A stretch of 28,342 nucleotides of DNA from the NCBI GenBank assembly GCA_030747075.1, contig JASLLL010000031.1:1-28342 (forward strand), in the 5' to 3' direction. Both the position numbers and the translations under genes were made by a program. The notes beneath the pieces are model-generated. The model ran no database searches. It worked only from the letters and a program-made list of their open reading frames with translations, and was not told the DNA's origin. The DNA is from Gemmatimonadota bacterium (GTDB taxonomy: Bacteria > ARS69). Positions within the stretch are counted from its first letter, which is position 1, and the number at the start of each line of letters is the position of its first letter. Shown in pieces: positions 190-8,869 of the stretch.

Positions 190-1509
190 ATGAGACGATT
201 TCTCATTCTGACGACGCTCGCCGCAGTGCTCTCCTTCGGAGGGGGCGTGGCCGAGGGAATCACATTCTTCGATCTGGCCACCGGCGATGAGTCCGGACTT
301 CCGGACGCGCGGTCGGCTGCGATGGGCGGCACGCGCGGAGCGGCGGCCACGGGTGCGCTGGCGGGTACCGCGAACCCCGCGTCGCTGGCGCGGCTTTCGT
401 CTTCGGTGACCTCGGTGTCTCTGAGTACGCACAAGACTCTGGAGACCCGTGCGACTCCCGCCTACGACAGTTTCGATGGCTTCCTCGTGGAGTCGATTTA
501 TGTACTGAACGACGCGTATCTCTTCCAGGGTGGTTTCGGTGCGGTGTTTGCACCGGAGACGGGCCTGTTGCCGCTTCCCGGGAAGATGGGACTGGGCGTC
601 TCCTTCGCGCCGGTGAGGGACTTCCAGTACCAGTATCTGGAAGAAGTGCGCGACAACGAGGTCTTCACGCAGCCAAGGGATCGACTCATTGCGTTGAACG
701 AGATTGAAGGCGAGGGCGCCATTCGCGCGCTGACCTTCGGAGCCGGGCTTCCCGTGACCGACAATGTCTCCGTCGGTGCCGGCGTGGAGTGGCTCACCGG
801 AGGGTACGAGCTCATGCAGCGCACCCGATGGATGCTGGAGGGGACAGAGGAGAGTTCGGACCTCTCTGTGCGGTCGCTTTCCGGGCGCCGTGCTGTTCTG
901 TCCACCAGCGTGCATGCAGGGCATCGACTGGATCTCTCCGGGGTCTTCCGCTATGCGGCGGGGCTCGCGGGGGAGAGTGCCGTCGAGGGAGCTCCGACCG
1001 GTCTTTCCGCGCTGGGAGAGTCGCTCGCGGATCCGTTCCCCGGGAAGGTGGTTATCCACCAGCCGTCGCAACTGGTCTTGTCGGCGGCGTACCGGCCCCG
1101 CGCAAAGATGAAGACGCAGGTGTTCGCGGAAGCCTCGCGGACTGACTGGTCTTCGTATCAACACAGCCTGTTCGAAGCGCAGGACCTTTCGGATGTGTGG
1201 GATGTGCGCTTCGGAGTGGAGCACATTTTCTACAACGGCTTCCCTGTTCGCTACGGGTTCCACTATCTTCCGTCGCCGAGGAATACGCAGATCGCGACGA
1301 CCACCTTCACATTTGGAACGGGGTTTGCCGTCGGGCCTCTTCATGCGGACTTGGCGTTTGAGGTCGGGAATCGCGAGTACTCGCATGAAGATCTCTTCCC
1401 GGATTCCATGTTTGGCGGGACGGACCATGTTCGCAAGGACACGATCGAGGAGAATCGCTCCTCCGCCTTCGTGACCCTCACCTACGCGCTCGACTCGGTC
1501 GGAGGCTGA
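190..1509 (+). CDS. PorV/FadL-like outer-membrane beta-barrel protein
   Basis: A 439-residue protein with a signal peptide (residues 1 to about 23, MRRFLILTTLAAVLSFGGG), then the N-terminal pattern DARSAAMGGTRGA followed by NPASLA (about 62-67). This layout is typical of the PorV/PorQ/UPF0164 and OmpP1/FadL barrels of the FCB group, where a glycine-rich hatch precedes an asparagine-proline-alanine turn. The rest is a run of amphipathic strands. In type IX secretion PorV is the outer-membrane shuttle for proteins with a C-terminal sorting domain, and such a protein is encoded at 3495-6401. Whether this copy is PorV itself or one of the many related barrels cannot be told by eye. The ATG follows a GGGAGGG site 8 bases upstream. 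The next gene starts 4 bases after the stop, so the two are probably translated together. Confidence 0.7.
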   Translation: MRRFLILTTLAAVLSFGGGVAEGITFFDLATGDESGLPDARSAAMGGTRGAAATGALAGTANPASLARLSSSVTSVSLSTHKTLETRATPAYDSFDGFLVESIYVLNDAYLFQGGFGAVFAPETGLLPLPGKMGLGVSFAPVRDFQYQYLEEVRDNEVFTQPRDRLIALNEIEGEGAIRALTFGAGLPVTDNVSVGAGVEWLTGGYELMQRTRWMLEGTEESSDLSVRSLSGRRAVLSTSVHAGHRLDLSGVFRYAAGLAGESAVEGAPTGLSALGESLADPFPGKVVIHQPSQLVLSAAYRPRAKMKTQVFAEASRTDWSSYQHSLFEAQDLSDVWDVRFGVEHIFYNGFPVRYGFHYLPSPRNTQIATTTFTFGTGFAVGPLHADLAFEVGNREYSHEDLFPDSMFGGTDHVRKDTIEENRSSAFVTLTYALDSVGG

Positions 1510-6639: not shown

Positions 6640-7257
6640 ATGAAGAAGACTGCTACCATGCTTCTCGTTGCGGCCTGTGTTCTGGGTCTTGCGTCCCTCG
6701 CCTCGGCTCAGACCTGTGGCTGGGAAGACGGCACGAGCACGGTCCTTGGTTCCTATGGAAATCTCGCCAGCGCGACCAATGTGACCTCGATGGCCAACAC
6801 GGGTGCGCACTCTGTGGAGCTGATTGAGAGCCCCGTCAGCGGCACTCCGCAGGCGTTTGTGGCCTTCATTGAAGGTCTCACCGATGGCGATGCCGTGACG
6901 GCCGGTTTCTACGGATGGGACGTCACCCCGGGCGCCAGCCCGTCGATGCGGGTCTGGGGGCACTACGGCGAGTCCGGCGACATCGGTTCCTACAACGGTT
7001 CCGCGGGTGGAAACTCCACCTACACCGACGGCTCCGGCTGGAGCATGGTCGATCACACTTGGACCTTTGACTCCAGTGGTGGCACGCGGGACGCGCTCAT
7101 CGTCGAGTGCCGTCTGTACAGCAACGCCTCTGGTTTCACCTTCTATGCGGACGATGTCTCCGTGTCGGCTTCGGCCGGGACCGTGACCCTCGCGTGTGGC
7201 GGCAGCGTCAGCGTCGAGAGCGCCTCCTGGGGCGTCGTGAAGAGCGAGTACCGGTAG
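6640..7257 (+). CDS. Small secreted beta-sandwich protein with a C-terminal SWGxVK motif
   Basis: A 205-residue exported protein with a clear signal peptide (residues 1 to about 23, ending ASA before QTCGW). The mature part is rich in Gly, Ser and Thr and reads as a jelly-roll domain of the carbohydrate-binding type: it opens with GWEDG and closes with FYADDVSVS, like CBM4/9-style modules. No enzyme motif is seen. The last ten residues (196-205), SWGVVKSEYR, match the end of the protein at 7469-8869, although the two are otherwise unrelated in layout. The gene has its own promoter with a palindrome, a good GGAGGA site and its own terminator, so it is a monocistronic and probably highly expressed surface or secreted protein. 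Its ligand is unknown. Confidence 0.75.
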   Translation: MKKTATMLLVAACVLGLASLASAQTCGWEDGTSTVLGSYGNLASATNVTSMANTGAHSVELIESPVSGTPQAFVAFIEGLTDGDAVTAGFYGWDVTPGASPSMRVWGHYGESGDIGSYNGSAGGNSTYTDGSGWSMVDHTWTFDSSGGTRDALIVECRLYSNASGFTFYADDVSVSASAGTVTLACGGSVSVESASWGVVKSEYR

Positions 7258-7297
7258 AGAGAGTCGCGCGCACTGCGCGCCGCACTCACCGTGAATC

Positions 7298-7326
7298 GGG
7301 GCGGCCTCTTCCGGGGTCGCCCTTTT
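7298..7326 (+). terminator. Intrinsic terminator after the 205-residue protein gene
   Basis: GGGCGGCC (7299-7306) pairs with GGTCGCCC (7315-7322; one G-T pair), followed by TTTT. A smaller hairpin, GCGCGC-ACT-GCGCGC (7266-7280), lies between the stop codon and this stem. Confidence 0.8.
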
Positions 7327-7334
7327 GCGTGCCC

Positions 7335-7362
7335 TTGACGCGCCGCTCCGACGCGGTAGCTT
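7335..7362 (+). promoter_or_regulatory. Probable promoter of the second lamin-tail gene
   Basis: TTGACG (7335-7340), a 16-base spacer and TAGCTT (7357-7362). It resembles the TTGACA/TAGGTT pair before the HU gene at 11493. It lies directly after the preceding terminator. Confidence 0.45.
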
Positions 7363-7468
7363 GTCGTCGCGCGCCTGGCCTGCTGCCGCTTCCCGAGACA
7401 GGTCTGTACGCTCCCCCAGGCCCCCTCCCCGGATGAGCCACCACACTGCTCCCCGTGGAGGAAGACCC

Positions 7469-8869
7469 TTGCGACGATGTTTTCACGCACTGGGACCCAT
7501 TGTGGTCCTCTTGACCGCTGCCGTGGCCTGCCCCGAGGTTCTGCTGAACGAGACCATGCCCGCCCCCGGATCTGACTGGAATGGGGATGGTGCCTTTTCG
7601 CCGTCCGAAGACGAATGGGCGGAGATCGTGAACGCTGGCATGTCTCCGGCGGACCTGACCGGTCTCTTCCTGGCCGATGCCGCCGGCCCGCAACGGCCGC
7701 GCTTCGCGTTCACCGGGACGCTCCCTCCCGGGGAGACCGTCTTCGTGACCGGAGAGGACGCGGCCGACTGGGAGACGGGGGCGGGAGAACCGTCCGTGGG
7801 GTTATCGCTGAACAACTCCGGAGACACGCTCTATCTGTTCCGCGCGGCGGGGGGGACGACCACGCAGGTGGACAGCGTCTCCTGGACTTCCGCGGAGATC
7901 GCGACGGACGCGTCCATCGGGCGCATGCCGGACGGCTCCGGCGTCTGGGAGCTCTTTGACGCACTTGTGGAGGGCGGCACCGGGGCGCAGCCCACACCGG
8001 GAGGCCCCAATGGAGGCCCGGCGGCTCCGCGGGTTCTTTCGCTGGAGATCGACCCGGCGCACCCCTCGGCCGGGGAATCCGTGACGGTTCGGGCGATTGC
8101 CGGCGATCGCGACGGAATTGCGACGGCAGTCCTGCAGGAGGAAGTCGACGGCGCTTCCCCGGTCGATCGCGCCATGACGCTGGTTTCGGGCACGCCCGAA
8201 CGCGGGAGCTGGGAAGTGGCTGTGGGGCCCTATGATGCGGGTGCGTCGCTTGTCTTTCGCGTACGGGTGTCCGATGGCGTGCTTCTGACGCTGTCGGGAG
8301 ATGCCGCGGCGACAGTCTCCAGCGGGGAGGTCTCCATGGTGTTGAACGAGATCCTCGCGGACCCGCCGCCGGAGAGTGCGGGCGATGCCAACGGCGATGG
8401 CGTTCGCGACACGGCGGACGACGAGTTCGTGGAGCTGTACAACGCCGGGTCCGACCCGGTCGACCTCTCGGGCGGATCGGTGAGTGACGCGACCGCGGCC
8501 CGTCACGAGTTCGCGCAGGGGACGGTCGTGCCACCCGGCGGGTTTCTGGTGGTCTTTGGCGGCGGGGCTCCGTCGGGGAGCATCCCCGGGCTTGTGGAGG
8601 TGGCCTCCACCGGGGGGCTCTCACTGAACAACACGGGCGACGAAGTGGTGTTGCGCGGCGCGGACGGAATCGTGCTGGACGTCCACACCTACGGCGGGGA
8701 GGCGAATGCGGACCAGTCGCTGATTCGCTTGCCGGATGGTGCAGGGGAGTGGACTCGCCCGCTGGACGAAGGACTCTCCGCGGCCTTTTCGCCGGGTGCG
8801 GAGAACGGGACAGCCACCGGTCTGACCGCCACAACCTGGGGTGGCGTCAAGGCCCTCTACCGCCGGTGA
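7469..8869 (+). CDS. Secreted protein with two lamin-tail domains and a C-terminal TWGxVK motif
   Basis: A 466-residue exported protein. The TTG start at 7469 is chosen because GGAGGA (7457-7462) lies 6 bases upstream and because it gives a clean signal peptide (MRRCFHALGPIVVLLTAAVA). The upstream in-frame ATG at 7433 has no ribosome-binding site and adds a charged, unlikely leader. The first lamin-tail domain covers about residues 23-175 (VLLNETMPAPGS, WAEIVN, LSLNNSGDTL). An Ig-like segment follows (about 185-285). The second lamin-tail domain covers about 290-450 (VLNEILADPPP, EFVELYN, LSLNNTGDEV). The end, TWGGVKALYRR (456-466), matches the end of the 205-residue neighbour and replaces the type IX-like domain seen in the 968-residue paralogue. 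No catalytic domain is present. Likely role: surface adhesion or matrix. Confidence 0.75.
   Translation: MRRCFHALGPIVVLLTAAVACPEVLLNETMPAPGSDWNGDGAFSPSEDEWAEIVNAGMSPADLTGLFLADAAGPQRPRFAFTGTLPPGETVFVTGEDAADWETGAGEPSVGLSLNNSGDTLYLFRAAGGTTTQVDSVSWTSAEIATDASIGRMPDGSGVWELFDALVEGGTGAQPTPGGPNGGPAAPRVLSLEIDPAHPSAGESVTVRAIAGDRDGIATAVLQEEVDGASPVDRAMTLVSGTPERGSWEVAVGPYDAGASLVFRVRVSDGVLLTLSGDAAATVSSGEVSMVLNEILADPPPESAGDANGDGVRDTADDEFVELYNAGSDPVDLSGGSVSDATAARHEFAQGTVVPPGGFLVVFGGGAPSGSIPGLVEVASTGGLSLNNTGDEVVLRGADGIVLDVHTYGGEANADQSLIRLPDGAGEWTRPLDEGLSAAFSPGAENGTATGLTATTWGGVKALYRR

Follow-up and report, generated by a model that had tools for sequence, protein, structure and literature searches.

The stretch of DNA analysed here (hereafter the window) comprises 28,342 nucleotides of contig JASLLL010000031.1 from a Gemmatimonadota bacterium (GenBank assembly GCA_030747075.1). 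Two open reading frames (ORFs) on its forward strand encode proteins of 205 and 466 residues, which end in ...SVESASWGVVKSEYR and ...GLTATTWGGVKALYRR, respectively, and share a short C-terminal motif, SWGVVKSEYR in the former and TWGGVKALYRR in the latter, which we refer to as the WG tail (Table 1). A preliminary description of the locus had noticed this similarity and proposed that it represents an unnamed sorting signal on two exported proteins. Both ends were confirmed, and both N-termini resemble signal peptides; the longer ORF starts with TTG or, alternatively, with ATG at position 7433. Unlike a neighbouring protein of 968 residues, neither of the two matches the type A C-terminal domain (CTD) of type IX secretion system (T9SS) cargo (TIGR04183, PF18962), nor do they match the type B domain (PF13585, TIGR04131). 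In agreement with the earlier remark that no named family was known for it, no Pfam or NCBIfam model covers the WG tail in the proteins scanned. An AlphaFold2 prediction of the 205-residue protein, made without an alignment, was uninformative (predicted local distance difference test, pLDDT, 42).

Table 1. Features of the window; positions refer to its first nucleotide as position 1.
Feature	Position	Strand	Match or remark
WG tail SWGVVKSEYR	7225..7254	+	exact C-terminus of the 205-residue protein
WG tail TWGGVKALYR and a further R	8834..8866	+	C-terminus of the 466-residue lamin-tail protein
Exported protein with WG tail, 205 residues	6640..7257	+	no Pfam family
Exported lamin-tail protein with WG tail, 466 residues	7469..8869	+	PF00932, 1.5e-32
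Exported lamin-tail protein with C-terminal T9SS type A sorting domain, 968 residues	3495..6401	+	TIGR04183, 4.8e-11
Exported PorV/BamG-like outer-membrane barrel	190..1509	+	NF053685, 1.6e-15; NF033709, 2.7e-10; below family cut-offs

We searched the genome of the window (G000; genomes, contigs, loci and families are given below by our handles G, C, L and f) for the codons of W-G-x-x-K-x-x-[YF]-R, i.e. TGGGGN7AARN6TWYMG, and used the same nucleotide pattern in reversed form as a control. The pattern yielded 21 matches against two for the control, all of them in frame and within 0–6 residues of a C-terminus: 19 stand directly before the stop codon, one is followed by a single residue and one by six. 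With the stop codon included in the pattern, 19 matches are obtained and none with the control. One match (C16:5) is truncated by the end of its contig, leaving its protein unreadable, and the remaining 20 proteins look exported. Their bodies are unrelated and include right-handed beta-helix, lamin-tail, NHL propeller and plastocyanin-like (cupredoxin) folds, as well as several proteins without a Pfam match; two further proteins of this genome have a tail that ends in K rather than R. Over all loci, 171 of 184 tail ORFs begin with a signal-peptide-like sequence, compared to 39% of 1212 control genes scored by the same crude signal-peptide rule. A motif that recurs throughout the genome on exported-looking proteins and lies outside any shared folded domain supports the proposal that these C-termini hold an unnamed signal of the sorting type. 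Neither outcome that the preliminary description had named as refuting it, absence of the motif from other exported proteins of the genome or a shared folded domain at the two C-termini, was observed. Some tail carriers are encoded in tandem, by two to four genes in a row (G000:C9:14585 and 15288; G003:C68:2831-5144; G001:C39:2866-4061). As a separate observation, several large exported proteins of the window genome end in another recurring sequence, LxxLGY[IV]x (L023:4924-6267, L025:1-1473, L036:8751-10691 and L023:16578-18167).

The conservation of the tail extends to positions that were left free in the search. Among 154 tails from tail-rich families, position 4 of the pattern is occupied by I, V, L or M in 90%, position 6 by a small or polar residue (A, S, G, T, N or D) in 95% and position 7 by L, M, I, V or F in 69%. 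A second set, of 90 full-length tails, has S or T directly ahead of the tryptophan in 88%. Furthermore, V-E is frequent about five and four residues ahead of the tryptophan. The resulting consensus is V-E-x-x-[ST]-W-G-x-[IV]-K-[AS]-[LM]-Y-R-COOH, with both Y and F occurring at the penultimate position. The conserved 10-mer is found at the very end of the proteins, after a variable linker, and the tail ends at R-COOH. Neither a transmembrane helix nor a conserved cleavage site is visible ahead of the tail. We dropped the idea of an amphipathic helix: although all conserved hydrophobic residues line up along a single helical arc, the hydrophobic moment does not exceed that of shuffled sequences. 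The sequence statistics strongly support the interpretation of the WG tail as a genuine signal.

The tail is also found far beyond this genome. Four other members of the same family have 22, 35, 45 and 22 tails and no control match, the family range being 19–45. Of 386 bacterial genomes sampled from 259 families, 17 carry 10–58 tails each, with the reversed control at 0 or 1 in each, and belong to eight families (f1, f26, f69, f99, f135, f159, f174 and f215); the same span of 10–58 tails per genome applies to the seven families unrelated to that of the window. In other families, a single tail, TWGSIKA[ML]FR, is found on one small exported FN3-like protein. Among the matches listed, this single-copy carrier occurs in Ignavibacteria, KSB1, Delongbacteria, Neomarinimicrobiota, Caldithrix, a Chlorobiaceae bin, Hymenobacter, Adhaeribacter and other Bacteroidetes bins, and Eisenbacteria and Zixibacteria have the tail on proteins other than the FN3 carrier. 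The tail is therefore common to many lineages of the Fibrobacterota–Chlorobiota–Bacteroidota (FCB) superphylum. A K-ended variant, WG[EQAR]IK[AS]EFK, was seen in family f149 (L287, L292, L288 and L293; G290 and G152), at least partly on proteins with the FN3 module.

In the single-copy carrier, a signal peptide is followed by one FN3-like module and then by the tail. AlphaFold2 predicts a confident FN3 body (pLDDT >90) and, separate from it, a less confident tail helix at residues 124–130 (pLDDT ~60). The fold resembles an FN3-like protein, and its first eight PDB matches include a T9SS cargo, the peptidylarginine deiminase of Porphyromonas gingivalis. Across 66 carriers, body identity has a median of 29% and tail identity a mean of 91%, a contrast that is biased because the loci had been found through the tail, with identity partly imposed by the pattern. 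A profile built from FN3 bodies without the tail, which is free of this bias, was run on 60 genomes, and 30 loci were read downstream of the module. In at least 14 of them, a type A T9SS sorting domain (YPNPFNP...GVY.Y.L...K..L) comes after the module, and in three the protein closes with a WG tail (L255, TWGSIKAMFR; L256, TWGSIKAIFTNRKNN; L262, TWGAIKAEFK). The module therefore carries either C-terminal address, and the WG tail takes the place of the type A sorting domain behind it. None of 26 tail carriers had both the tail and a T9SS domain. Likewise, the lamin-tail passenger class in the window bears either address: the 968-residue protein with the T9SS domain is encoded two genes ahead of the 466-residue protein with the WG tail.

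The tail also occurs together with SprA (Sov), the translocon of the T9SS. In the window genome, SprA is full length (C7:5319-11123) and reaches a combined score of 550.7 bits, the cut-off being 200 bits, and it is present in all 17 tail-rich genomes. Strong matches (E-values of 1e-30 or better) were found in 96 of the 386 genomes and 63 of the 259 families, and all 19 tail families checked were positive (hypergeometric P = 2e-13 for tail families versus SprA families, calculated at the family level and uncorrected for phylogeny). The surroundings of sprA are conserved in tail-rich genomes (L245-L254, where L245 is G000:C7:1-18000), with LptF/LptG-like permease genes on one side and an M28 peptidase (glutaminyl-cyclase-like) gene and an apparent rimP-nusA-infB cluster on the other. 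C25 peptidases, the family of PorU and the gingipains, were detected as family-level matches, at 1–27 copies, in each of 30 genomes tested that encode SprA, of which 28 carry the tail. In G275, G342, G298 and other FCB genomes, these gingipain-fold enzymes number 20–27 copies per genome. Finally, in six KSB1-type loci the FN3 gene lies directly downstream of porD, which encodes a T9SS component, and a PorV-like gene is nearby in five of the six. PorD binds SprE/PorW, a SprA-associated protein (PMC10994853, PMC8754138).

In our best explanation, to which we assign a probability of roughly 0.58, the WG tail is a ten-residue C-terminal address tag read by a SprA-centred export machinery. A carrier protein would first be exported by Sec. 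Its tail, presumably a short, flexible and probably helical peptide, would then be recognised by a component of this machinery, for instance a carrier barrel of the PorV/PorQ type, after which the protein would cross the outer membrane or be displayed at the surface, as are proteins with the larger type A, B or C domains. Most FCB phyla would have kept one fixed FN3 carrier per genome, and in some lineages the tail may have spread to 10–58 proteins per genome. Recognition by SprA or a partner is suggested by the co-occurrence and the FN3 module swap, and on these grounds we lean, by a small measure, towards a SprA route for the tail proteins.

As signals of the T9SS, the review literature describes type A, B and C domains only (PMC10202324). 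The WG tail and the type A CTD both stand at the C-terminus of Sec-exported proteins, share the FN3-like module ahead of them and the lamin-tail class of passengers, and occur in hosts that encode SprA and C25 peptidases; the type A CTD, however, is a beta-sandwich of roughly 70–80 residues, whereas the WG tail has about ten residues and no beta domain. Types B and C are likewise alternative C-terminal signals of one secretion system (PMC10202324), but the window proteins with WG tails differ from type B cargo in lacking its domain, and no barrel gene was seen to recur beside tail genes. The preliminary description had set the motif apart from type IX signals because it lacks their beta domain. 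This was correct with regard to structure, yet the evidence points back to the T9SS, because SprA is found in all families checked and because the tail replaces a T9SS domain behind the FN3 module. We regard the odds as about even that it constitutes a minimal further class of type IX signal, a linear ten-residue peptide in place of a folded domain, which would be ancient in the FCB superphylum.

Several observations weigh against the SprA-centred explanation. The main weakness is that SprA and the tail are both traits of the FCB superphylum, and their co-occurrence could therefore reflect shared ancestry. Many SprA-positive genomes show no tail, including two with the strongest SprA matches (G207 and G337), and one carrier genome, G043, whose proteins end in TTWGNVKEAYR and TTWGSLKQTYR (L073 and L074), has only a weak SprA-like match (8.6e-19, in an ORF of 2159 residues). 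No receptor gene was found: the neighbours of tail genes in tail-rich genomes are not recurrent, either by eye or with PorV and PorD seeds (PorP/SprF profiles were not among them). We rejected PorD (DUF4835) as the tail receptor of tail-rich genomes, as the tail-rich family f1 and genome G029 lack it. Nor is it a general receptor, because of this absence and because the FN3 carrier gene in other phyla mostly lies beside housekeeping genes (Maf, RdgB), not T9SS genes. Moreover, the surface location or secretion of tail proteins is itself predicted from their sequences.

Some of these points would also suit a different role, in which the tail is a docking peptide for another outer-membrane or periplasmic receptor, such as a BAM-associated (beta-barrel assembly machinery) or peptidoglycan-bound protein, and serves retention or anchoring independently of SprA. 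The housekeeping neighbours of the FN3 gene, the SprA-positive genomes without a detected tail and the lack of a receptor beside the tail genes are in line with such a role. We nevertheless consider it rather unlikely, as all strongly checked carrier families have SprA and the tail stands in for a T9SS sorting domain behind the same module.

Alternatively, the tail might be a processing signal, with a protease cutting before it and either the released peptide or the trimmed protein being the functional product. The position of the conserved 10-mer behind a variable linker and the C25 peptidases, often present in many copies, would fit this idea. It is improbable, however, given the lack of a conserved cleavage site, the many different passenger folds and the fact that C25 copies do not track tails: G029 has 46 tails and four C25 peptidases, whereas G298 has few tails and 21 C25 peptidases.

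PEP-CTERM, GlyGly-CTERM and LPXTG signals combine a motif with a transmembrane helix and a basic terminus, and function together with an exosortase, a rhombosortase or a sortase. The WG tail resembles them as a short C-terminal motif that recurs on many unrelated exported proteins per genome, but it has no preceding transmembrane helix, as the preliminary description had pointed out, and no consistent exosortase or sortase partner. Sortases (PF04203) were found in none of 30 genomes with a search that was positive in control genomes and hence works. Exosortases (PF09721) were found in nine of 30, namely the window genome (one copy, C3:91125-91895) and eight other tail-rich genomes; six tail-rich genomes that are nearly complete (G029, G102, G138, G240, G275 and G368) lack them, as do all 11 few-tail genomes tested. 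We therefore rejected the dedicated sortase-like enzyme that the preliminary description had envisaged for tail-rich genomes, so that its interpretation is supported in part, and a signal of the LPXTG or exosortase type is largely refuted. Just as improbable is that the shared ends are merely the last segment of a common folded domain or a recent duplication of gene ends: tandem paralogues do occur among the carriers (C9:14585 and 15288), but the passenger folds are unrelated, AlphaFold2 places the tail outside the body, and the FN3 bodies are far more divergent than their near-invariant tails, in loci found by the tail, with L255 and L256 found by the body alone.

Within the window, the PorV/BamG-like barrel is encoded upstream of the tail cluster. 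It is possibly a T9SS or BAM-type component, and any tie to the WG tail is speculative.

Within the literature and the family libraries that could be searched, the WG tail appears to be undescribed; no description was found in the searchable literature, whose coverage leaves out most subscription papers. The tail predicts the export or surface proteome of several uncultured lineages whose cell surfaces have so far been unknown. If SprA does serve it, the type IX system can read a peptide of ten residues, which would help to dissect cargo recognition by the SprA translocon and would provide a compact tag for surface display. As the FN3 carrier occurs in cultured Hymenobacter, the question is open to testing now.
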